This document shows positions 22,001 through 36,603 of a stretch of 47,501 bases of DNA, in pieces. The stretch is taken from NCBI GenBank assembly GCA_947598825.1, contig CANQFM010000021.1, forward strand, positions 1-47,501, in the 5' to 3' direction. The position numbers and the translations under genes were made by a program. Numbering within the stretch: the first letter of the stretch is position 1; each line of letters opens with the position of its first letter. The notes below the pieces were generated by a model. That model saw nothing but the letters and a program-made list of their open reading frames with translations. It did no database searches and was not told where the DNA came from. This stretch comes from an uncultured Eisenbergiella sp. GTDB taxonomy: Bacteria > Bacillota > Clostridia > Lachnospirales > Lachnospiraceae.

Positions 22001-23624
22001 AAAACCACTCCATTTATCGTTTGGCCGCGTCCCTTTAAACGGCCTTTACGCGCGGTCCGCCTGCTCCTCCTGCCCGGCGTTTCTCTGGGCCTTCATGGTC
22101 TTTGGCATCTCAAAGAGATAATTGCCCTGTTCGTCCAGCTTTTTCTGCGGGAAGTGGCAGGCCAGAAAATGACCCGGTTCCACCTCGGTCAGCTCCGGCG
22201 GCACGTTCTTACACTTGTCGCAGGCCATGTAGCAGCGGGTATGGAACTTGCATCCCGTAGGCGGCTTGATAGGGCTGGGGATATTGCCTTCCAGCAGAAT
22301 ACGGTCTTTCTTTAAACTCTCCGGATCCGTGGTCGGGATGGAGGATAAGAGGGCCACCGTATAGGGATGGCGGGGATCGGTGAAGATCGTCTCGCTGTCT
22401 CCCAGCTCCACTACGTTCCCCAGATACATCACGCAGATACGGTCGGAAATATACCGCACCACGGACAGGTCGTGGGAAATGAACATGTAGGTCAGATTCT
22501 GCTTCTTTTTCAGTTCCTGAAGCAGATTGATGATCTGCGACTGGATGGAAACGTCCAGGGCGGACACGCACTCGTCGCAGACGATGAACTTCGGCTGCAC
22601 GGCCAGCGCCCTGGCGATGGCCACGCGCTGCCTCTGGCCGCCGGAGAACTGATGGGGATAACGGTGCAGCATATACTCCTGCAGGCCGCATTCTTCCATG
22701 GTCTTGACGATATGGGCGCGCATCTTCTCCGTCCCGTGCCTATAGAAATTGTGGGTCAGCAGCCCCTCTTCGATGATCTGGCCGATGGTCATACGGGGAT
22801 TTAAGCTGGAATAGGGATCCTGGAAAATGATCTGCAGATCCTTCCGAAACACCCGCATTTCGTTGTATTTTAAGCGGGACAAATCGATTCCCTCGTCCCG
22901 CATGGCCTCATATTTGTCAAACTCCGGCTCCCCGGCGTGTCTGCTGCGCAGATCCTTAAGCTGGGCCTCGATCCCGTCGCAGTCGGACTGGCAGGCGTCC
23001 AACGCCTGTTTGGCCGCGTCCATTTTTCCTTTCAACTGATCGCTGTTTTTGCCCTTCGCCTCCGGTTCCAGGCTCTGCTCATAATCCAGCTTCGCCGCGA
23101 CATATTTTTCTCTGGCCTTCCGGCGTTTCCCGTTCGCCTCGTATTCCTTCAGAAGCAGTTCCGTCCCCCGGGCCTCGTCGGCGGCAAAAAAACCGCCCAT
23201 AATCTTGACGATATTGTTCAGACAGGTCTGCGCCTCGCAGTGGGCCAGGTTCTGCTCCTGCAGCAGATAGAAATCGGCTTTTTCCTTGCCTCCCGCCTGC
23301 TCGACTTTGTTATCAAGCTCCTGCGCCTTCGCCTGCGCTTTCTGCAGCAGGGTCTTGTACTTTCCCAGGTTTTTCAGCGTATGCTCCACATAGGCGGGCG
23401 CCGCGTCCGCCAGGGTGGAACCGTAATACATGGTCGTGCCTGCGGTCTGGGGATAGAGCTGTAAGATCACGCGGCCCAGAGTGGACTTCCCGCAGCCGGA
23501 CTCTCCCACTACGCCCAGCGTCTCGCCCTCGTAGATATCCAGGGTAATGTCCTCGTTGGCCCTGACATATAGCTGTTCCTTCTGAAACAGGGAGGTCTTC
23601 GCAACGGGGAAGTATTTTTTCAGA

Positions 23625-24638
<1,014 letters not shown>

Positions 24639-24653: not shown

Positions 24654-26618
24654 TTACTTTTCTACGCTGGCCTTCGGATCCAGCACATCACGCAGGGCGT
24701 CGCCCACGATATTGATGCAGATGGTGGTGACGGCCAGGAAAATGGACGTAAACACCCACTGCCACCAATACGCGTTGATGATCGTCTCGTTGTTGGCGCC
24801 GTTTAACATGTTGCCCCAGGTCGGCCTGGGATAAGCCACGCCGAAGCCCAGGTAGCTTAAGGAGGACTCAGTCAGCATACAGGTGCCGAAATCCAGCATC
24901 AGCGTGACCAGGATCACGGACATGACATTCGGAAGGATGTGTTTGAAAGCGATCACATTCTCCTTCACGCCCATGGACTTGGCCGCCGTCACATACTCGC
25001 TCTCACGGGCCAGAAGCACCTGCCCGCGCACCAGCCTGGCAAGCCCGGGCCAGGTCAGCACGCCCAAGATGCACATGATGATAAAGATCCGCATCGTCTC
25101 GGAAAGCACCATATGGCTCATGACCGCCGAAAGGATCATGGCAAAGGGCAAAAACGGGATGGCGGAGAAGATCTCGGCTACGCGCATCAGAAAGACGTCC
25201 ACTTTGCCGCCGAAATATCCGGAAATACAGCCGACCAGGATCCCGATGATGGAGGAAATGATGACCGCCACCGCGCCGACGGTCATGGTCATCTTACCGC
25301 CGTTGATGATGCGCTGGAAAATATCCGCGCCCCGGTTATCCGTGCCGAACAGATATCCCTTTAAGCCCCATTTGTCTAAAAGCGCGTCGTTGGCATCCAC
25401 CGCATAGGTCTGGAAGGAACCGGTATAAAGCTTTTCGGCCCCTGTCACATCGTCGGGCACCTCCGTCTGATCCAGGGCGTTGCTGCCCCAGGAGTAAACG
25501 TTGCCCTTGTTGGTCAGGCCGGAATAATGATAGGAGCCGCCCACGATCTGCACATAATCCTCATCCGCCGCAAGCTCCGGCGCCTTGGTAGCGTCCAGCG
25601 GGAAATCGCCGGAAAAGCAGATGGAGCCGTCGTCCAGCAACAGGCAGACGCTGGAATTGGTGGCCGTGATGGCGTCGATCTTCCTGCCGTTTAAGTACTC
25701 GGATATCTTCTTGCCCGCGCTTCCCACGTTTTCGCGCACGGTATTGTACAGGTCGCGGGAACCGGTATAGATCGAAGTCCGTTTGTTGTTCAGGCCGACG
25801 ATATAGTTCAGGGTAAAGTCGATATCATAGACCTTGCCCGCCGCCAGGAACAGATCCATGTTGGCGTAGGTCAGCTTGTTGCCCCACAGATACAGGGTGC
25901 CGTCGTTCATCAGGATCGCCGAGGCCTGATAGCCGCAGGTCAGCTTCTTGACGTTTGCCACGTCCACCCCGTTATCCGCCAGCTCCTGCGGGAAATAGGC
26001 GATATTAGGGTTGGGGGCTTTCCCCGCCGCCTCCGCTTCGGCCTGCGTGCCGTACTGCCCCAGGGTATTGGCGCCCCAGCAGTACACTTTCCCGTCCTCG
26101 CCGATGGCCACGATATGATCGATACCGGCCGCCACCATGGCGATCTTTGCGTTCTGCACTTCCTCCGGGATCACCCCGATGTCCACGCCGGTGGTGCCGA
26201 TCTGGGTGGAGCCCCAGACATAGACCTTGCCTGCGTTGGACAGCCCCACGGAAAAGGAGCCGTAGCCGTCGATCATCTTGATATCGCCCTGCAGCTCTTT
26301 GGGCACCGACATGAGCCTCATGTTGGGCGCCATGCTCTGCTGGGTCACTTCCGTATAGGAATCCTTATATTTCGGCATGAAAAGAGGGCCGATGAACATG
26401 ATCAGGAACATCACGATCAGCAGCGCAAAAGCGCCTACCGCCAGCTTACGTTCCATGAAATTATTGAATACCTGCCGCATGGGGCTGACGATGACTTCCA
26501 CATCCGCCGCCGTCGCGTCCTTTCCCAGCATATCGTCCGCCAACTGGTTGCCGCCTCCATGGACAAAGCGGGCGAACCAACCGCTCTTTTTTGAGGAAGC
26601 CTGCTTATTCTTCGCCAT
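24654..26618 (-). CDS. OppC-like ABC permease with an inserted seven-repeat RCC1 beta-propeller
   Basis: A 654-residue permease, about twice the usual size. Residues about 59-81 form TM1. Residues about 112-415 contain seven RCC1-like repeats; the clearest blades carry the core G-hydrophobic-DG-K-VY-WG (SNAGKVYVWGS 127-137, GEDGKVYCWGANTLGQYG 173-190, NDGTLYLWGN 238-247, TNKGNVYSWGSN 369-380). The OppC motif FGTDNRGADIF follows at 424-434, then the remaining helices and the EAA loop AAKSMGVKENVIAFKHILPN (545-564). The propeller therefore sits in the extracytoplasmic TM1-TM2 loop. The gene is second of the two permease genes in the importer operon. Function of the propeller is inferred only: docking of the lipoprotein, wall contact or peptide selection. 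Confidence 0.93.
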   Translation of the reverse strand: MAKNKQASSKKSGWFARFVHGGGNQLADDMLGKDATAADVEVIVSPMRQVFNNFMERKLAVGAFALLIVMFLIMFIGPLFMPKYKDSYTEVTQQSMAPNMRLMSVPKELQGDIKMIDGYGSFSVGLSNAGKVYVWGSTQIGTTGVDIGVIPEEVQNAKIAMVAAGIDHIVAIGEDGKVYCWGANTLGQYGTQAEAEAAGKAPNPNIAYFPQELADNGVDVANVKKLTCGYQASAILMNDGTLYLWGNKLTYANMDLFLAAGKVYDIDFTLNYIVGLNNKRTSIYTGSRDLYNTVRENVGSAGKKISEYLNGRKIDAITATNSSVCLLLDDGSICFSGDFPLDATKAPELAADEDYVQIVGGSYHYSGLTNKGNVYSWGSNALDQTEVPDDVTGAEKLYTGSFQTYAVDANDALLDKWGLKGYLFGTDNRGADIFQRIINGGKMTMTVGAVAVIISSIIGILVGCISGYFGGKVDVFLMRVAEIFSAIPFLPFAMILSAVMSHMVLSETMRIFIIMCILGVLTWPGLARLVRGQVLLARESEYVTAAKSMGVKENVIAFKHILPNVMSVILVTLMLDFGTCMLTESSLSYLGFGVAYPRPTWGNMLNGANNETIINAYWWQWVFTSIFLAVTTICINIVGDALRDVLDPKASVEK

Positions 26619-26636: not shown

Positions 26637-27680
26637 CTATTTGTTCACGCGGACCCTTGGATCCACGAGACCGTACACAATATCGATCACCAGCGTTCCC
26701 AGCAGGGACATGCCCACATAGAACATCTGCATCAGCAGCACCACGTCGTAATCCGCGCTCCGCAGCGCCGTGATCATGACCCTGCCCATGCCGTTCCAGG
26801 CAAAAATGCTTTCAAACACCAGGGAACCGGAAAAGATCCCCAGAAACCACCCTACCACCAGCGTCACGATGGGGATCAGGGCGTTGCGCCAGGCATGGGA
26901 GTAAATGACCACCTTTTCCCGCAGGCCCTTGGCCCTGGCGGTGCGGATGCAGTCCATGGACAACGCTTCGATCATGGAAGCGCGCACATAACGGGTCATG
27001 CCGCCCAGGGAGCAGAACGTCATAGCAATCAGCGGCAGCGCCATGTAGTACATTTCATCCTTGAACCTGCGCCACCCGGTAAAATTGGAACCCGGCGTCT
27101 TCATGCCGCTGGGCGGGAAAATATGCAGCTTGGAGCAGAAGATCCAGATGAACAGAATGGCGATCAGGAAGGTGGGCAGGCTGTATCCGATGATGGTCAA
27201 CACCTGGATCGCCTGATCGAACCGGCTGCCCCGCTTCACCGCGCAGTGGATGCCCAAAGGGATCGTGATCCCCAGCGCCAGGATCGTGGCGAAAATATTG
27301 ATCTTGATGGTGTTCTTCATCGGCTGGGCCACCACCTGCACCACAGGTTTTTTATAATCGTAGGAATAGCCCAGATTCCCCTGCAGCAGCCCGTCGTAGG
27401 TCCCGTCGTAGAGCGGATAGAGCCCCACCCAGCGCAGATAACGGACCACCTTGTTGTTGGTATCCGTCCCGTACATCCGCTGGTATTTCAGATAGATCTC
27501 ATTGAAATACTCGTCCGCCTTCCCCTTCGGGATGGCGTTCTTCAAAGCGGTATACTCCGCCTTGGCATCGGTATAGGCCCGGTTCGCAGGCACCAGGCTG
27601 TAAATCATGAACATGATGAAGGAAAGGATCACCAGCACCACGCACATATACCCGATTCTCTTGATCACATATTTTCCCAT
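26637..27680 (-). CDS. OppB-like ABC permease
   Basis: A 347-residue permease with about six membrane helices. The N-terminus MGKYVIKRIGYM leads into TM1; a longer-than-usual charged loop (about 38-95) precedes the conserved GNLGYSYDYKKPV. The EAA loop reads RTARAKGLREKVVIYSHAWRN (21 residues, positions about 245-265) and the end is DPRVRVNK. The ATG at 27678-27680 has GAGGGAAG upstream; an open frame runs 66 codons further but through hairpins and without protein character. It forms the channel with the RCC1-bearing OppC-like subunit. Confidence 0.93.
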   Translation of the reverse strand: MGKYVIKRIGYMCVVLVILSFIMFMIYSLVPANRAYTDAKAEYTALKNAIPKGKADEYFNEIYLKYQRMYGTDTNNKVVRYLRWVGLYPLYDGTYDGLLQGNLGYSYDYKKPVVQVVAQPMKNTIKINIFATILALGITIPLGIHCAVKRGSRFDQAIQVLTIIGYSLPTFLIAILFIWIFCSKLHIFPPSGMKTPGSNFTGWRRFKDEMYYMALPLIAMTFCSLGGMTRYVRASMIEALSMDCIRTARAKGLREKVVIYSHAWRNALIPIVTLVVGWFLGIFSGSLVFESIFAWNGMGRVMITALRSADYDVVLLMQMFYVGMSLLGTLVIDIVYGLVDPRVRVNK

Positions 27681-27741
27681 AATCTTCCCTCGCTTTTTGA
27701 TAGAAACCAAGGTTCCGCCGATCTGTATCCCATTGGGAGCC

Positions 27742-27974: not shown

Positions 27975-30284
27975 TTAGTTCAGCCAGTAAACGTCCGCAG
28001 CGTCCTTGATATAGTAGGAGCTGTAGTCGTCATACATGGAAGGATCGATGGTCATGTTCCAACTGTAGTCATAAGCAGCGGAGGTAAATCCGGTGGCGAA
28101 GTTGAAGCAGTTGTAGGTCGGGGTGCCGCTGTAGCTTACGCCGTAGCCGCCCTGGGTCAACTCATCCAGCATCGGATTGAAGTCGCCAACAGTCTGCTGC
28201 ACCTCAAAGCCCGCCGCCTTGATGTTGTCGTTGTTCATGAAGCCGGTCACCAGAAGGTCGGTGAACTCGTTGTCGGAGGTACCATACCAGTTGAGTACCA
28301 GAGGCATATAATAGTTATCGCCCACCTGGGTCACCTTGTAAGCGCCGTCCACGGAAGCGTAGGTCTTGTCGCTGTCGTACATCTGATCCGCAGGGATCTG
28401 CTTGTAACGCACGCCGCTCTCATAAGGATTGCCTTCCGCGTCGTATACCCAGCCGTCGGCCTCCAACACTTCGATGGCCTTATCCACGGAGGTATCGTAA
28501 GCGTTTAAGAGCATGCCGTCCGCAACCGCCGCCTGGTACATCCAGGAACCGGTGTAGTAAGGGCCGTCCGTCACGCCGCCGTAGCCGCCGGTGAAGTCCT
28601 TGGCAAAGGTCGCGCGGTCCATGCAGTAGGCAATAGCCTCACGGACAGAAGCGAACTGCGTAGGGCCAAGATCCGCACGGAAGCCCAGCTTGCCGTAGCC
28701 GGCGCGGCTGTAATGGGTCGCCACATATTTGTCGGGCTGATCCTCCACCAGCGCGATGACTTCATCGGTGGCGTCGCCGCCGGTGATGCCGCTCAACACG
28801 TCCACGCCGCCGGAGGTGAAGTCCGCCAACTGGGTCTCGGAGATGATCCTCTTATAAACGACCTTTTCGATCTGGGGCTTGGTGCCCTCATAGTTGCCCT
28901 TGAAGTTCTCGTTCACAGTCAGGACAACGGAATGATCCGCCTCGTCCCAAGACTCGATCATGTAAGGGCCGGAATAAGGATAATCCTGGGTGTGATCCCA
29001 TACCGCGTTCGTGATCTGCTCGGCGGCCACATAGCTGTCGCCGTCCTTGGCATAGAAATCGTCGGTGAAGTACACGCCCTGGCCGTCGTCCTTAATGTCC
29101 GCGTCGCCTACCCACAGAGCCATAGGCTGCGGGGAGAAGCCCGCATAGGTGATGGCGTAGAAGTAGTTCGCGTAATCCTCGCCTACCGTCACGGAGAAGG
29201 TGTAGTCGTCGATCAGACGGATCCCGGAGAATACCTTGCTGGCGGTCACGCCGTCCACATCCGCGCCGTCGTTGGTGCCGTCATAGGCATGGAACGCGTC
29301 GTAGCCCACATAGGTCAGGCCGGAATTGCCGGTGCCGCCCGCCTGCATGCCCACAGGGCCTGCGTTGAGCAGCGTATAGACCAGATAGTTCTTCGCGGTC
29401 ACAGGGCTGCCGTCGGAGAAGACCAGGTCATCCTTCAGGGTAACGGTAAAGGTGCGGGTGCCGTCGTCGTTGACCACGTCGTCATGGCTGGCAACTACGG
29501 TATCGTTGTACTCATAGCCGCCTTCCTTGGTGGTGGACACGGTCTCCAGGCCTGTGATCAGGTTTTCCACATCCAGATCGCCGGCGCCGGGAGAGGATAC
29601 GCCGAAGCTGGAGGCACGAAGGCGTCCGGACAGTTCAGTGGTGTTGCCCAGGATGATGCTGTTGTCCTCCTTGTCGCTGGTCCAGTCGATCAGCGCGGAC
29701 GCAGGGCCCCAGTAAGGGTTGGTGGGATGCTCTTCCACGCCCTTGATCTGCGCGTTGTAAACGTCATAGTACTCGTTGGAGTACAGCGGGATCTCAGGGA
29801 GCAGGATGTTCCAGCGCTGTATGTAAAGCTTCCACCAAGTCGCATACACATCGTCCTCGGTCTCCCAGTAGCCGTCCTCGGGAACGGCGGTGTTGTACAC
29901 CATAGCCATGGTCAAAAAATCCAGACCCAGCTCATAGCGCACGCCGTCGCGGTCGATGTAGGCAAGGCCCGTCTCTTCATCCTCGATGACGTCGGCAATG
30001 CTCACATCCTTGCCGAACTGGTCATACAGGGAGGTATAATCGGTGCCGTACTCGGCGCCGACCAGAGGCTTCTGCTCCGCATAAACGATATCGGAAGCCT
30101 CGGGAGCCGCCTCGGTGCTTTCCGCTGCAGCGCTCTCCTCGGCAGGTGCTTCTGTCGCGGGCGCCTCGCTCTCTACCGCAGGCGCTTCGGTCTGCGCGGG
30201 AGCTGAAGACTGGCCGCCGCAGGCTGCCAGGCCAAAGGTCATGGCCGCCGCCAGAAGAACTGCCAACACTTTCTTCAGTTTCAT
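27975..30284 (-). CDS. peptide-binding lipoprotein (SBP_bac_5 type), enlarged and apparently circularly permuted
   Basis: A 769-residue surface lipoprotein. The signal peptide ends in lipobox LAAC (C22). An Ala/Glu/Pro/Thr-rich linker follows (about 24-66), then about 120-202 with LGLDFLTMAMVY, YIQRWNILLPEIPLYS and EYYDVYNAQIKG, a pattern that in ordinary SBP_bac_5 proteins lies at the C-terminus. The normal N-terminal strand starts only at about 208 (NSIILGNTTELSG) and the core runs to the end (YDDYSSYYIKDAADVYWLN). This suggests a circular permutation. The ATG at 30282-30284 has AAGGAG about 8 bases upstream; 27 upstream in-frame codons are leader. First gene of the importer operon; it captures peptides or similar ligands. 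Confidence 0.9.
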   Translation of the reverse strand: MKLKKVLAVLLAAAMTFGLAACGGQSSAPAQTEAPAVESEAPATEAPAEESAAAESTEAAPEASDIVYAEQKPLVGAEYGTDYTSLYDQFGKDVSIADVIEDEETGLAYIDRDGVRYELGLDFLTMAMVYNTAVPEDGYWETEDDVYATWWKLYIQRWNILLPEIPLYSNEYYDVYNAQIKGVEEHPTNPYWGPASALIDWTSDKEDNSIILGNTTELSGRLRASSFGVSSPGAGDLDVENLITGLETVSTTKEGGYEYNDTVVASHDDVVNDDGTRTFTVTLKDDLVFSDGSPVTAKNYLVYTLLNAGPVGMQAGGTGNSGLTYVGYDAFHAYDGTNDGADVDGVTASKVFSGIRLIDDYTFSVTVGEDYANYFYAITYAGFSPQPMALWVGDADIKDDGQGVYFTDDFYAKDGDSYVAAEQITNAVWDHTQDYPYSGPYMIESWDEADHSVVLTVNENFKGNYEGTKPQIEKVVYKRIISETQLADFTSGGVDVLSGITGGDATDEVIALVEDQPDKYVATHYSRAGYGKLGFRADLGPTQFASVREAIAYCMDRATFAKDFTGGYGGVTDGPYYTGSWMYQAAVADGMLLNAYDTSVDKAIEVLEADGWVYDAEGNPYESGVRYKQIPADQMYDSDKTYASVDGAYKVTQVGDNYYMPLVLNWYGTSDNEFTDLLVTGFMNNDNIKAAGFEVQQTVGDFNPMLDELTQGGYGVSYSGTPTYNCFNFATGFTSAAYDYSWNMTIDPSMYDDYSSYYIKDAADVYWLN

Positions 30285-30525: not shown

Positions 30526-33081
30526 TCAGGACGTGGCTTTCTCCCTGTCCACGACCTCGTAGCTCACTTCGATCCGCCTGCCGTGGTAATGCTTGAGGTA
30601 GCTTCGGACAATGCGCTTCATGACGGCATGGATCCTTTCCTCGTCCGCCTGTCCCAAAACGACCAAAAACTGCACGCCACCATACCGGATACACAGATCG
30701 TCCGCGCCCAGGTGCAGGCGCGCCGCCCTCTCCATACTGCGCATGGCCTGTTCCTGTTCGTCCGCCGTCACGTCCTCCCTGATATCCAACGTCACGAGGG
30801 CCGCTCCGGCAAGGCCGGAAGTGTGGGTTTTGGAACCGCCCAGATAACGGGAAAGCTGACCGGACAACGGGCCGGCATCTGCCTGTCCGCCGTCCAGCGC
30901 CTTTAGAAGCTGTTCCAGATCCGCCCCGTTTTCCCCCGGGGCTGCCTCTGCCTCTTTCCGATAAATGTGATAGCCGCCTTTTTGGCTCTGTTTCACATGA
31001 TAAAGGGCCTTTTCCGCTTTCGCCAGGACGCTTTCGTAATCCTCCCGGCTCCTGCAGAGGGCCATGCCAAGGGAGAGGGTGGCCGCAGCCATCAGTCCGT
31101 TTATTTTCTTCTTTTCCCCGAACTTTCGTAAAATGTCCTGGGCGGTCTTTTTCGCGCCTTCTTCGTCTGCGCCGGAAAGGAACAGGATAAATTCGTCCCC
31201 TCCGAAACGGCACAGGAGATTGCCGCCTTCATATTCCCTGAGGATCCCGGCGACCTCCAGCAAAAACCGGTCCCCCTCCAGATGTCCCCGGGAATCGTTG
31301 ACGTGCCTCAACCCGTCCACATCCGCCAGGCACAGACAGCCCGCCTGCTCCTGGAGCCTTTCCTTTATGGCCCGTTCCCCGTCGTAGCGCAGGCATAGCC
31401 CGGTCAGAAAATCCTTCCCTGCGGCAAAATTCCGCTCCGGCGGCGTTTCCCGCCTGGGCATAAGCTCCGGCCGGACGCGGCCGGAAACGTCCGCCTCCAA
31501 AACGGCCGCCGCGATCTTCCCCTCCTGCAGCAGCCGCAGGAAAACCTCCGTCATCTCCGGGTCGAACTGAGTCCCCTTCCCCTGTTCCAACTGGCTGCGG
31601 ATCCCTTCGTCCGGCAGACGGTCGCGGTAAACGCGGCGGGAACTCATGGCGTCATAGGCGTCGGCGATACAGATGATGCGGGCCACCTCCGGGATCTCTT
31701 TACCAGCCAGCCCGTCCGGATACCCCTGGCCGTCATATCTTTCATGATGGTATCTGGCCCCGTCCCTAACGCCCGGCAGCGTATCGATATGCTGCAGGAT
31801 ATCCCCGCCCAGCGCGGCATGGGATTTGACCACCTCGTATTCGATCTGCGTCAGTTTATCCGGCTTGTTGAGTACGGAATCCGGCACGCCGATCTTGCCG
31901 ATATCGTGCAGCAGGGCCACATGGCGCAGGTTGCTGAGTTGCTCCTCGGAATATCCCAGTTCCCTGGCCAGGCACACCGCGTATTCCGCCACGCGGTAGG
32001 AATGGCCCTTGGTATATTTATCCTTGGCGTCGATGGTATCCGCCAGCGCATGGACGACCTGCAGCGACATCTGTTCCATTTTCTGCCGCCGCTCTTCGGC
32101 CCTTTTGGTCTGCAGCGCCACCTCCCGCTCCAGTTGTTCCTCGTAGTGGTAGCTGTCCGTGACGTCCTTGAGCAGATACAAAAAGAGCTGTTTGCCCTGC
32201 TTGGGCCGGATCTCCTGCCTTTCCACCTGATAGACCCTGCCCTCTACGGAAAAGTACTGCTGGGAAAGGGAGCCTTCGGACGCCTGGGCGATGATCCGGC
32301 CTGCGACCTGATTGTTGTACAAAATATGGGATTCCCCGTCCAGGACGATGATCCCCTCGGCCAGTTGGTTTAAGGCATACTCCTTGGCCTCCACGACGAA
32401 ATCCAGAAAATCGTATCTGCGGATCCCCAGATAGAGCATGACCGACGCGACGGCGTAAGCCAGCGCCGTGGTATCGTACCCTCCGGTACATCTGAGCGCC
32501 ACCAGCAAAAGGCCGACGACGGCCACCATCATCGTCGCGAGCATGCCGACGATCTGCCGCCTTTTGTTGGCGTTTTCCTCCTTTTGGTACTGCCGGATCA
32601 GCAGCACGGCGGAAATGCAAAAATAAACTCCCGCGGACGCAAGGAACAGATAGTACATGGGGCCGTGCCCCAGGACGAGGTGCGGGAATGCGCCGCTGTC
32701 CTGAAATTCAATGGAAGTATAAAACAGATCGTTCTGCTCGCAGTAAATGACCAGCGCGCAGATCCCGGCGTGGAAAAAAGCGAGTACGGTCCGGATCGCG
32801 TTCGGGATCCTGGCGTTGCAGTAATCGAGTGCCAGCATCAGGATCATAAACGGGATAAATGACTTGCCCAGATAGGAGATCCGCGTCCCGATCAGCGCCG
32901 CTTCCTTGGTGGAAGCGAGGATCTCCACAAAATAACCGGCATTGTTGATCCACGCGGCCTGGGTCAATATCATGAGGATCGTCCGGCGGTGTGAATTGCC
33001 CTGTGTATACAAATATAGAAATTCCAAAAAGACGACCAGCGTCGTCACGCCCTGTAGGCCGAGTAAAAAATAATACAACAT
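30526..33081 (-). CDS. membrane cyclic-di-GMP enzyme: 7TM, PAS-like, HD-GYP, GGDEF, and degenerate GGDEF
   Basis: An 851-residue protein. An N-terminal 7TM sensor like HisKA_7TM (about 1-225) is followed by a PAS-like segment (about 235-310), a coiled linker, and HD-GYP with HDIGK (H392, D393), HHERYDGQGYP (GYP at 453-455) and IADAYDAM. The GGDEF domain has RFGGDEF (627-631) and DVDGLRHVND. A second GGDEF-like domain at the C-terminus has GGVQF (801-805) in place of the active site, so it is probably non-catalytic. It may both make and break cyclic-di-GMP. The ATG at 33079-33081 has GGGGGGA upstream; the earlier ATG overlaps the -10 box. Single-gene transcript. Confidence 0.92.
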   Translation of the reverse strand: MLYYFLLGLQGVTTLVVFLEFLYLYTQGNSHRRTILMILTQAAWINNAGYFVEILASTKEAALIGTRISYLGKSFIPFMILMLALDYCNARIPNAIRTVLAFFHAGICALVIYCEQNDLFYTSIEFQDSGAFPHLVLGHGPMYYLFLASAGVYFCISAVLLIRQYQKEENANKRRQIVGMLATMMVAVVGLLLVALRCTGGYDTTALAYAVASVMLYLGIRRYDFLDFVVEAKEYALNQLAEGIIVLDGESHILYNNQVAGRIIAQASEGSLSQQYFSVEGRVYQVERQEIRPKQGKQLFLYLLKDVTDSYHYEEQLEREVALQTKRAEERRQKMEQMSLQVVHALADTIDAKDKYTKGHSYRVAEYAVCLARELGYSEEQLSNLRHVALLHDIGKIGVPDSVLNKPDKLTQIEYEVVKSHAALGGDILQHIDTLPGVRDGARYHHERYDGQGYPDGLAGKEIPEVARIICIADAYDAMSSRRVYRDRLPDEGIRSQLEQGKGTQFDPEMTEVFLRLLQEGKIAAAVLEADVSGRVRPELMPRRETPPERNFAAGKDFLTGLCLRYDGERAIKERLQEQAGCLCLADVDGLRHVNDSRGHLEGDRFLLEVAGILREYEGGNLLCRFGGDEFILFLSGADEEGAKKTAQDILRKFGEKKKINGLMAAATLSLGMALCRSREDYESVLAKAEKALYHVKQSQKGGYHIYRKEAEAAPGENGADLEQLLKALDGGQADAGPLSGQLSRYLGGSKTHTSGLAGAALVTLDIREDVTADEQEQAMRSMERAARLHLGADDLCIRYGGVQFLVVLGQADEERIHAVMKRIVRSYLKHYHGRRIEVSYEVVDREKATS

Positions 33082-33112
33082 TCCGTCGATCCCCCCTACT
33101 TTCCACAAGATC

Positions 33113-33141
33113 ATTATATCTGATTTTGCCAGTCAGGACAA
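33113..33141 (-). promoter_or_regulatory. promoter of the HD-GYP/GGDEF gene
   Basis: TTGTCC (33141-33136), a 17-bp spacer and a perfect TATAAT (33118-33113). The -10 box overlaps the upstream ATG, which excludes that start. Confidence 0.65.
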
Positions 33142-33248: not shown

Positions 33249-34934
33249 TTATATGGGCCAACGCTGCAGCTTTTCTTCCAGCTTCGCCACGATCTGCTCG
33301 AAGTACCCGTCCTCAAAAGGCACCTTCAAGCCCACCGCTTTGAGCATATTGCCGTAAAAATCGCTGGCGGACAGCCTGCAGAGCGCAAGATAACTGTCCC
33401 AGGCCTCCCGGTAGTCCTCGTCCATCCGGATCTTGTACTGGAACGCGCAGGTCTGGGCCAGCACATAATCGATATAATAGAAAGGACTGTTGTAAATATG
33501 CTGCTGCCGCTGCCAGTAACCGCCCTGGCCGAAGAAAGGATCGTCCTCATAATCCAGATGCGGCATATATACCTTTTCCAGTTCCCGCCACGTCTGCCTG
33601 CGCTGGAGGGGCGTAAGCCCCGGTTCCGCGTAGACGATGTGCTGAAATTCATCCACCATCGTACCGTAAGGGACGAAACGGATCGCATCCTCCAACTGCA
33701 TCAGGAGGAAATCCTCCGCCCTCCCCCCAAAGAAATCCTTCATCCAGGGATCGGTGAAAAACTCCATGGACATGGAGTGGATCTCCGCCGTCTCCATCGT
33801 GAGATCGCTATGCTCCAGGATCGGATCTTTGCCGGACAAAAATCCCTGGAACGCATGGCCGCACTCATGGGTGATCACGTCCACATCCCCCGCCGTGCCG
33901 TTGAAGTTGGCAAAGATAAACGGGGCATGATAATTGTACAGATAGGTCATATAGCCGCCCTGCCTCTTGGTCTTGCGGCCGAACACGTCCAAAAGCTCGT
34001 TCTCCATCATGAAATCGAAGAACTCCTTCGTCTCGCCGGAAAGGGCAGCGTACATCTTCTGGCCGGTCCGCAGGATCTGCTCCGGCGTCCCGACGGGCGC
34101 AGGATTGCCGTTTTTAAAATATACTTCATTGTCGATGTAGGACAGCCTGGACAGGCCCAGCCGCCTGCGCCTGCGGTCGTGTACCTTCTCCGCGAAGGGC
34201 ACGAACACTTCCTTCACCTGCCTGCGGAAATTCTCCACGTCCTGTCTGCCGTAGCTGTTGCGGTTCATACGGCGGTAGCCCAGCTCGATGAAGTCCTTAC
34301 AGCCCATGGCCCTGGCCTGGGCCGTGCGGCATTTCACCAGCTTATCGTAAATATCGTCCAGTTGTTCCTGTATGGTGAGGAAATAATCGCTGAAAGCCTT
34401 CCAGGCTTTTTTCCTCACGCTGCGGTCGGCGTTGGTCAGATAGGGCCGCATCAGGGACAGGTTGAGTATTTGTCCGTCGAAAGGGATCTGGGCGGTGGCG
34501 ATGAGCTTGTTATAGGAGGTGCGCAGGGCGTTCTCTTCCTGCATCAGCCCGATAATGCCCTCCTCCATGCTCTTTAATTCATTCTCCATGGAAACAAAGG
34601 CCACTTTCCCGATCTTTTCTTCCAGGAAGCTGCGGTAAGGGGATTCATAAATGGCCCGCTTATACTGGTTTTGCAGGTTGGCGATCCGGGGCCGCACTTC
34701 ATCATAATAGTCCTGCTCCGCGCTGTAAAAGGCGTCCGTCGTATCGCCGTCATAGCGGATATGGGCGATGGTCATCTTATCCGACACATCTTTGCTGACC
34801 TGATAAAACTCCTGATGGATCTGCCAGAGTTCTTCCCCGCTGGAAGCGCTTCTTGCCCTCCCGGTCAGCTCCTGCATCGTTTTTTTAGTCTTTTCGTAAT
34901 CCACCCGTTCATAGGGCATCTCTTTAAACTTCAT
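33249..34934 (-). CDS. M3-family oligoendopeptidase (PepF-like)
   Basis: A 561-residue zinc peptidase of family M3. The active site is HECGHAFQG (His-Glu-x-x-His), followed by the third ligand glutamate in METAEIHSMSMEFF. The C-terminal stretch PFYYIDYVLAQTCAFQY matches the clostridial M3 oligoendopeptidase type. No signal peptide, so it is cytosolic and cuts short peptides. The conserved start MKFKEMPYERVDYEK is at 34932-34934; 62 upstream in-frame codons lie within the EAL gene. Its first 11 bases overlap the end of the GGDEF-EAL gene, so the two are translationally linked. It is a plausible consumer of peptides brought in by the nearby importer. Confidence 0.93.
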   Translation of the reverse strand: MKFKEMPYERVDYEKTKKTMQELTGRARSASSGEELWQIHQEFYQVSKDVSDKMTIAHIRYDGDTTDAFYSAEQDYYDEVRPRIANLQNQYKRAIYESPYRSFLEEKIGKVAFVSMENELKSMEEGIIGLMQEENALRTSYNKLIATAQIPFDGQILNLSLMRPYLTNADRSVRKKAWKAFSDYFLTIQEQLDDIYDKLVKCRTAQARAMGCKDFIELGYRRMNRNSYGRQDVENFRRQVKEVFVPFAEKVHDRRRRRLGLSRLSYIDNEVYFKNGNPAPVGTPEQILRTGQKMYAALSGETKEFFDFMMENELLDVFGRKTKRQGGYMTYLYNYHAPFIFANFNGTAGDVDVITHECGHAFQGFLSGKDPILEHSDLTMETAEIHSMSMEFFTDPWMKDFFGGRAEDFLLMQLEDAIRFVPYGTMVDEFQHIVYAEPGLTPLQRRQTWRELEKVYMPHLDYEDDPFFGQGGYWQRQQHIYNSPFYYIDYVLAQTCAFQYKIRMDEDYREAWDSYLALCRLSASDFYGNMLKAVGLKVPFEDGYFEQIVAKLEEKLQRWPI

Positions 34935-36603
34935 CTTCCGGACTGTCTCCTTTGCAAAGGCTGATAAATTTCTCCCGGTCCATGGGTTTTCCAAAATAAA
35001 ACCCCTGGTACAATTCAAGTTCCTTATCTTTAAGCTCTTCTTCCTGTTCCCTGCTCTCGATGCCCTCCTGGCAGACCGAAATGCCCATGGCATGGCAGAG
35101 CTTGACGATAAACTCCACAAAGGTCACGTCAAACACGCTCTCCTGCATGTTCACGATAAAGGAACGGTCGATCTTGACGATATTGACCGGCACGCTCTTT
35201 AACAGCCCCAGGGAAGAATACCCGGTGCCGAAATCGTCCATGGCCACCTTAAAGCCAAGTTCATGCAGCGCGTGCAGCACGTCCTTGATCTGGCTGTAAT
35301 TGGAAGAAATGCTGCTCTCCGTCAGTTCCAGGACGATGTTGCAGTCCTCCCAGAAGCCCTCGCGCTTCTTCTGGACCAGATAGGACAAAAAATCGTATCT
35401 TTCAAACTGGAGCCAGGACACATTGATATGCATGGTAAAGCCCGGGACAAGTTGCGCCATCTCCCTGGCCATATTCACGGACGTCTCGAAGACCCACTCC
35501 CCTGCACGCCCGATCATCCCGTCCTCTTCCAAAAGCGGTATGAACTCCACCGGCGCCACCCTGCCGAAGCGTTCGCAGGAAAAGCGCATCAGCGCCTCCG
35601 CGCCCACGATCTTTTCCTCTACAGCGCTGCGCAGCGGCTGATAATACACCTCAAAGCCCGCAAAGCCGTCCTCGATATGCTCCCGCAGTTCTTCGGTCAG
35701 CTCCAGCTTGCGCTCCTTGATCTCCATCACTTTGTTGGAGAACAGCACGATCCGGTTCTTGCCCTCCGCCTTGGCAAACTCCAGGCAGTAGACCGCCCGC
35801 TTCACCAGCTCCTGGAACCCCTTCCCATCCCTGGGATACTGGGCGTAACCGCCGGACAAGGTCACTTCGTAGCGGTTCCCGTCGATCTCCTGGGGCATCG
35901 TATAAAGCTCCTGCAGATCATGATAAAGGCTGTACACCTGGCCGGTGCTGCAGTCTTTAAAAATGATCAGAAACTCGTCCCCGTCGAAACGGTACAAAAG
36001 GGCGCTTTGGGGCAGCAGATTCTGGATCTGCCTGGCGGCGCGCCGGATCACCTTGTCCCCGAAGGCCCGGTTGTAAAAATCGTTGACCCTGCGGAAATTA
36101 TCAAAGCCCAGCACAAGAACGCCCAGGGACGGCGTTTCTTCCGTCCCCAGCATCTGCTCCACCCTATGCTCCGCTTCAAACCGGTTCCGCAGCCCGGTGA
36201 CCTGATCCGTCCTGTCATAGTGGGACATGTTGGTGATCGTCCCCGTATAGATGTTGCGTTCGCCGTTCTCGTCTTCCATCATGCTGCCGCGGCAGCGCAG
36301 CCAGACCCATTCGCCGCTGACGTTCTGCGCGCGGTACTGGATGTCCCGGTAAGAAGTCTTGCCTGACAGCAGATCCTCCATGGACTGGCGGAAGAGATTG
36401 CGGTCCTTTTCGTGGATCTTGGCGCACCACATCTCCATGGCGTCTTCCACGATCTCGCCGGGCAGGCCGAACTCCTCTACCATCTGGCTCGGATAGCGGA
36501 AGGTGCCAAGACGCATGTCTCCGATGAACACATATTCTTCCGTGGTCTGAGAGATCACATTGTAAATTTTATCAATCGCCTTTTTGGCTTCGCTGTCTCC
36601 CAT
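34924..36603 (-). CDS. PAS-GGDEF-EAL cyclic-di-GMP phosphodiesterase
   Basis: A 559-residue soluble protein. A PAS domain (about 20-125; YRAQNVSGEWVWLRCRG is the PAC end) is followed by a GGDEF domain (about 130-290) whose motif is DGDEF (207-211), probably reduced in activity. The EAL domain (about 300-550) is intact: EAL 336-338, INVS, ELTES, MDDFGTGYSS, KIDRSF, QEGIE and the QGFYFGKP glutamine. It is therefore likely to hydrolyse cyclic-di-GMP, with the altered GGDEF acting as a GTP sensor. GGGGAAAGG precedes the ATG. It is cotranscribed with the oligoendopeptidase. Confidence 0.93.
   Translation of the reverse strand: MGDSEAKKAIDKIYNVISQTTEEYVFIGDMRLGTFRYPSQMVEEFGLPGEIVEDAMEMWCAKIHEKDRNLFRQSMEDLLSGKTSYRDIQYRAQNVSGEWVWLRCRGSMMEDENGERNIYTGTITNMSHYDRTDQVTGLRNRFEAEHRVEQMLGTEETPSLGVLVLGFDNFRRVNDFYNRAFGDKVIRRAARQIQNLLPQSALLYRFDGDEFLIIFKDCSTGQVYSLYHDLQELYTMPQEIDGNRYEVTLSGGYAQYPRDGKGFQELVKRAVYCLEFAKAEGKNRIVLFSNKVMEIKERKLELTEELREHIEDGFAGFEVYYQPLRSAVEEKIVGAEALMRFSCERFGRVAPVEFIPLLEEDGMIGRAGEWVFETSVNMAREMAQLVPGFTMHINVSWLQFERYDFLSYLVQKKREGFWEDCNIVLELTESSISSNYSQIKDVLHALHELGFKVAMDDFGTGYSSLGLLKSVPVNIVKIDRSFIVNMQESVFDVTFVEFIVKLCHAMGISVCQEGIESREQEEELKDKELELYQGFYFGKPMDREKFISLCKGDSPEDEV

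Follow-up and report, generated by a model that had tools for sequence, protein, structure and literature searches.

An RCC1 propeller inserted in the OppC permease of a peptide-type ABC importer from Clostridia

In the E. coli Dpp transporter, the TM1-TM2 regions of both permeases, DppB and DppC, are periplasmic, that of DppB is a scoop motif which enters the cleft of DppA, and DppC is paired with DppF (PMC12136057, in excerpt). A large folded domain in a permease loop is known from MalFGK2, in which MalF-P2 directly contacts the substrate-binding protein (SBP) MalE (PMC3150292, in excerpt). A natural circular permutation of a tethered ABC binding protein was described for TpMglB-2 (Tp0684), a sugar-binding protein of 'Type I/Cluster B' whose permuted part is poorly conserved in sequence relative to MglB (PMC4990184, in excerpt). 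For RCC1 repeats in an ABC permease, we found no describing paper among the open-access articles searched, and domain databases may carry the architecture unremarked. RCC1 and the BPD permease domain are named together in a figure legend for a glutamate-receptor domain network, and the excerpted text of that paper does not describe a fusion (PMC2950845).

We analysed a 47,501-nucleotide stretch of DNA from an uncultured Eisenbergiella sp. (hereafter, the window) and identified a type I ABC importer of Opp/Dpp type with five components, in which the OppC permease is interrupted by RCC1 repeats (Table 1). The operon encodes an SBP_bac_5 protein, two permeases and two ATPases with oligo_HPY C-termini (oligo_HPY was scored in the window alone). 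Since each subunit passes its Pfam family test, the system falls within Opp/Dpp importers and requires no new category. Two ordinary Opp operons in the same genome (OppC of 334 and 263 aa, OppF of 343 and 269 aa) served as internal controls.

Table 1. Positions of the importer genes, their parts and a neighbouring peptidase gene in the window
Feature	Positions	Strand	Evidence or remark
oppF ATPase, 537 aa, GTG start	22046..23659	-	ABC_tran + oligo_HPY
OppF charged insert, ~170 aa, aa ~86-255, between Walker A and Q-loop	22895..23404	-	
oppD ATPase, 337 aa, no insert	23625..24638	-	ABC_tran + oligo_HPY; Walker A to signature 114
oppC-RCC1, OppC permease with inserted RCC1 propeller, 654 aa	24654..26618	-	
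OppC transmembrane core, aa 421-650	24669..25358	-	Onset just ahead of GTD motif
OppC seven-bladed RCC1 propeller, aa 100-420, predicted extracytoplasmic TM1-TM2 loop	25359..26321	-	
OppC TM1, aa 59-81	26376..26444	-	OppC_N match aa 45-88; model helix 58-80
oppB, 348 aa, ATG start	26637..27683	-	BPD_transp_1 6.9e-38
oppA-type lipoprotein SBP, 769 aa, circularly permuted	27975..30284	-	SBP_bac_5; PDB profile match; lipobox LAAC (sequence)
SBP permuted segment, aa ~81-203, homologous to C-terminus of other SBPs	29676..30044	-	Match aa 117-199; outer boundaries approximate
M3-family peptidase near operon, outside transporter	33249..34952	-	PF01432 3.8e-31

The RCC1 insert of OppC and its distribution

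The window OppC scored above the Pfam cut-offs for OppC_N and BPD_transp_1, and also for RCC1_2 (86.8 bits, cut-off 22) and RCC1 (45 bits, cut-off 21.7); its score against WD40_RLD (104.4 bits) was below the Pfam cut-off of 150. It fell short of the cut-off in all 24 NCBIfam families listed for it, and the Opp4 scores in the window were under the curated NCBIfam values (Opp4C, 287.5 bits versus 350; Opp4B, 219.6 versus 450). In the predicted structure model, the insert adopts a closed seven-bladed fold whose closest bacterial fold match is BLIP-II. In a set of 61 relatives, OppC_N matched 60/61 and BPD_transp_1 61/61 at E<=0.001; a count of 61/61 is by construction here, as the set was picked by RCC1 content. 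A clear conserved face of the propeller was looked for and rejected: conservation of AB over BC loops was weak in the near family (p 0.025) and not significant in the wide family (p 0.28).

When the model was aligned to OppC, the propeller fell in the TM1-TM2 region. Averaged over the 61 members, net charge was +3.9 for the N-terminal 55 aa and -10.6 for the propeller insert, a bias that by the positive-inside rule fits an extracytoplasmic insert. By homology and charge, the propeller is thus predicted to sit in the extracytoplasmic TM1-TM2 loop; a cytoplasmic-side insert is ruled out by the TM1 alignment, the published Dpp topology and the charge bias. An initial sequence-only reading of the window had already proposed this placement, as well as seven RCC1 repeats between TM1 and the GTD motif that make a complete propeller. 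The repeats were confirmed, and the complete propeller and its placement are supported: RCC1, RCC1_2 and BPD_transp_1 were above their Pfam cut-offs in the profile search that it had suggested, and the predicted model closed with seven blades.

A second OppC lineage carried another, non-RCC1 insert at the same TM1-GTD position, in frames of 510-591 aa (L219:2077, L220:6420, L221:5591 and L222:6098). The L222 protein, the sole one of this lineage scanned, had only OppC_N and BPD_transp_1 above Pfam cut-offs. The TM1-GTD loop of OppC looks like a hot spot for domain insertion.

In a profile search at E<=1e-20, matches were found in 11/299 genomes sampled from the family, 21/295 from the order, 18/341 from the class and 16/348 from the phylum, with some genomes shared between these samples. 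About eight of the matches (1 in the order, 3 in the class and 4 in the phylum) resemble other RCC1 proteins, a status called solely from frame length or partial match. Within the genus, 6/13 genomes matched at E<=1e-3, which indicates a patchy distribution. A scan of named genomes yielded 211 relatives, 80 of which were kept, including sequences from Acetatifactor muris, Butyrivibrio and a MAG labelled Eisenbergiella. A less biased test used the permease core without the propeller as query against 146 genomes of the order. Every one of the top 12 matches (>=353 bits) lay in a frame of 601-894 aa. Those listed with lower scores (<=309 bits) lay in frames of 291-431 aa, bar four of 510-591 aa that carry the different insert. 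Within these 146 genomes, one core lineage thus constantly has the propeller.

We also detected, in a genome of the same class, a 20,000-base sequence (L228) that is part of a reported open frame of 29,380 aa and is open throughout its 20 kb. With serial RCC1-type repeats in the part inspected, it is a candidate giant multi-propeller protein.

In a tree of 77 operons built on the OppC core and OppD (77/139 rows, none >=88% identical), all RCC1 rows formed one clade with support 100/99, and RCC1 required one change, a single gain. RCC1-OppCs are one clade across Clostridia. The same architecture in many genomes and the single clade rule out a chance match or an assembly chimera. Inter-blade loops vary in length and sequence, as they would in a spacer or stabilizing module that has no specific partner; we regard such a role as very unlikely, since RCC1 shows one change on the tree and no loss was seen, the 12 strongest core-only matches in the 146 genomes all being long frames.

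The usual order of RCC1 operons is SBP-OppB-OppC-OppD-OppF. Where the contig left room, OppB was present in 124/124, the SBP in 118/118 and OppF in 120/120, and oppB was upstream of oppC in 124/124; these counts rest on 126 RCC1 rows, each required to have OppD beside OppC, so that the OppD count of 125/125 is by construction. The named and other genome sets overlap in some species (for example L099 and L178, both 169,395-base contigs), and the operon counts are therefore not fully independent. Fourteen OppC rows were dropped, among them rows cut off by contig ends or with broken or overlapping frames (e.g. L132, L140 and L203), and OppF frames were broken in a few rows (L192, L210). Among the 14 was an exception, L188, which has the SBP and OppB and in which OppD and OppF are absent in the ~5.3 kb downstream of OppC (from 5359 downwards). 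Its genome also encodes a full operon (L187), which makes L188 the second RCC1-OppC copy there, and it may borrow ATPases from the first.

A survey for the same fusion, as proposed in the sequence-only reading, thus found it across Clostridia in a near-constant SBP-OppB-OppC-OppD-OppF operon, L188 excepted. One clade, one gain and this operon agree with the proposal that the propeller is a permanent part of a peptide-type importer. The accompanying statement that OppC subunits lack RCC1 holds for the ordinary OppCs here but not for the RCC1-OppC clade, which is widespread in Clostridia.

The OppF insert and the permuted substrate-binding protein

Three observations went beyond the sequence-only reading: an insert in OppF, a circular permutation of the SBP and an M3 peptidase neighbour. 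In the window OppF, the distance from Walker A to the signature is 286. It exceeded 200 in 113/116 measurable RCC1 operons and was 92-111 in 13/13 non-RCC1 operons (ordinary or other-insert); a large OppF insert was thus present in 113/116 RCC1 operons versus 0/13 others. It was missing in three RCC1 operons (L163, L165 and L176), and so is not essential. One further RCC1 row outside the tree (L164) had a distance of 114. On the tree, the insert required two changes, which we interpret as a single gain and a single loss. Its length, by the cut used in 53 operons, was 136-201 aa (median 187). The insert is rich in K, E, A and L, a composition suggesting that it is probably helical. A known fold for it was sought without a convincing match: comparison with PDB by phmmer gave one (E 0.21), and Pfam gave one at 0.013, below the cut-off. 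As the OppF counterpart pairs with the C subunit in Dpp, the propeller and the OppF insert would, by homology, belong to the same half of the transporter.

Against PDB 9p48, an OppA, a profile made from 50 SBPs aligned in three pieces. Profile positions 206-284 corresponded weakly to chain positions 12-86 (i-E 3.3) and positions 417-564 to 176-313 (i-E 2.8e-23), and positions 127-184, ahead of both, corresponded to the C-terminal 503-557 (i-E 7e-6). A PLYSNEYY-like segment is located ahead of the core in 44/50 SBPs and is C-terminal in the other six (L148, L149, L150, L152, L153 and L156). An HMM of the six unpermuted C-termini matched the N-terminal part of 44/44 permuted SBPs, and an HMM of the permuted segments matched the C-terminus of 6/6 unpermuted SBPs (best domain i-E about 1e-21 to 1e-28, with small sets). 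In a Foldseek/VIA structure comparison of the window SBP, all 50 VIA rows listed start no earlier than model residue 178 and none extends past 767, as expected of a sequential aligner on a permuted fold; this is supporting evidence, not proof of permutation.

Permuted SBPs, including that of the window, formed one clade inside the RCC1 clade and required one change; the support of 89/99 falls below the star of the program. The nesting indicates that the permutation is most likely later than the propeller. Among the tree and operon rows, no C-segment was detectable in 12 SBPs, and 6 operons lacked an assigned SBP. The two forms, found in one operon family of the same gene content, amount to a natural experiment in fold topology, tethering and transport, which engineered permutants only imitate.

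Candidate partners of the propeller

We compared part-by-part distances between operons for 53 of 64 RCC1 rows, with the OppC core and OppD controlled. Dropped rows had a missing part (5), no OppF motifs (2), no insert (2) or a short SBP match (2), and L140 was left out beforehand. The partial correlation of propeller and SBP was 0.58 with log distances and 0.52-0.74 with raw distances or ranks; when permuted and non-permuted operons were taken separately, it was 0.31-0.45. Controlling for all five remaining parts gave 0.70 overall and 0.31 and 0.25 in the two subgroups. The positive control, OppB-SBP, for which contact is established in Dpp, gave 0.19 with log distances (0.25-0.52 with raw distances or ranks), and the cytoplasmic control, OppF insert-SBP, gave 0.07 (-0.02 to 0.29). 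For propeller-OppB the values were 0.10 (0.12-0.31), and in the permuted group with rank distances it equalled propeller-SBP (both 0.31). Propeller-OppF insert gave 0.08 with log distances, -0.14 to 0.35 over raw distances and ranks together and -0.11 to 0.07 with ranks. The upper values for the insert came from non-permuted operons with linear controls (0.35 with the propeller, 0.29 with the SBP), where ranks gave 0.07 and -0.01. The propeller-SBP correlation is about as strong as OppB-SBP, and those of the OppF insert are weaker or null. The propeller-SBP value could stem from extracytoplasmic selection or rates that both parts share instead of contact, and the taxon shuffling used in the test leaves shared ancestry in place.

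From this correlation, the SBP is most likely the partner of the propeller. Lipoprotein docking was one of the roles suggested in the sequence-only reading. The choice of the SBP as likeliest partner speaks for it; docking itself, which we infer and take as the best explanation, is about an even chance (probability roughly 0.5). The propeller would then be a docking or retention platform that holds the SBP above the translocation gate, opposite the OppB scoop, as MalF-P2 holds MalE.

The propeller might instead bind substrate, as a second capture site or a filter at the channel mouth. By homology it is beside the translocation path, and residues in or next to the AB loops, such as D167, H168, Q231 and Q403, do not vary among 47 near relatives. 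However, H168 occupies a position of the RCC1 G-x-x-H pattern and may be structural, and in the wide set H168 drops to 0.90 and Q403 to 0.74; we consider a substrate site quite unlikely.

M3-family peptidase genes, of two distant subfamilies, were found in 30/140 loci, window included, a count that is not dereplicated and covers many contigs without room. Their recurrence favours oligopeptides, which are most likely the substrate of the transporter, and the peptidase is a possible functional partner of the importer. In the window, a 7TM-HD-GGDEF gene (30526-33114) separates the M3 peptidase gene from the operon; at another locus (L077:2022-3737), an M3 peptidase gene is directly upstream of the SBP gene. 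Flanking ORFs were also clustered in search of a recurring extra operon gene, and this candidate was rejected, as no cluster occurred in more than 8/65 loci, although M3 peptidases do recur. Beside one RCC1-Opp operon we observed an RCC1-repeat protein (L193:3-1203) and a protein without a Pfam match (L193:1207-2673); relatives of the latter occurred in 7/65 loci.

These neighbours bear on a further reading, that the propeller docks a third party of the envelope (peptidoglycan, S-layer, a secreted peptidase or another protein) and so brings the importer to sites of peptide release. Propellers of the RCC1 type serve as general scaffolds for protein binding, the closest bacterial fold match, BLIP-II, is an inhibitor, and both the M3 peptidase genes and the cluster without a Pfam match recur nearby. 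Yet the two largest neighbour clusters reach only 8/65 (M3 peptidase) and 7/65 loci, the usual location of M3 peptidases is the cytoplasm, and the correlation found is with the SBP. We therefore think a third-party partner unlikely.

Returning to docking of the SBP, the other two altered parts could be accommodated more tentatively. The OppF insert, on the OppC-OppF half, might add a cytoplasmic contact or brake. The SBP permutation, which brings the anchor beside the former C-terminal segment, might have changed the seating of the tethered SBP against the propeller. Taken together, the parts could mark these type I importers as a separate class, where the OppC propeller keeps the SBP docked between cycles, an OppF arm senses or gates that state from the cytoplasmic side, and a later permutation of the SBP re-sited the tether. 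We hold this wider proposal to be doubtful; if true, three parts were rebuilt together and the permutation re-sited the membrane tether to suit permanent docking.

Comparison with known transporters

Peptide importers are a main route of amino-nitrogen uptake in gut Clostridia. To our knowledge, how lipoprotein SBPs stay with their transporter when the cell has no outer membrane is largely an open question. With a protein-binding fold at the position equivalent to the scoop, SBP docking becomes testable by simple deletions.

Compared with OppBCDF and DppABCDF of E. coli and OppABCD and DppABCD of Mtb, the system described here has a ~320-aa propeller in OppC and a ~170-aa insert in OppF, and the window SBP is permuted and longer. 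A long OppF is also represented by the Mycoplasma OppF profile (NCBIfam NF043078, 649 positions), in which the C-terminal ATPase half is displaced. Proteins with comparable propellers, such as BLIP-II, UVR8, HERC2, RPGR and RCC1, are soluble or eukaryotic, whereas here the propeller interrupts a membrane subunit.

Like the RCC1 insert, MalF-P2 is a large folded domain carried by a type I importer permease in an extracytoplasmic loop. The two differ in fold and in permease family; in addition, the RCC1 insert is in the TM1-TM2 loop, and its contact with the SBP is a proposal drawn from the distance correlation. TpMglB-2 is likewise a circularly permuted, tethered ABC binding protein. In contrast to that protein, the permuted SBPs described here belong to SBP_bac_5, both forms occur in one operon family, and the moved segment is clearly homologous between them.
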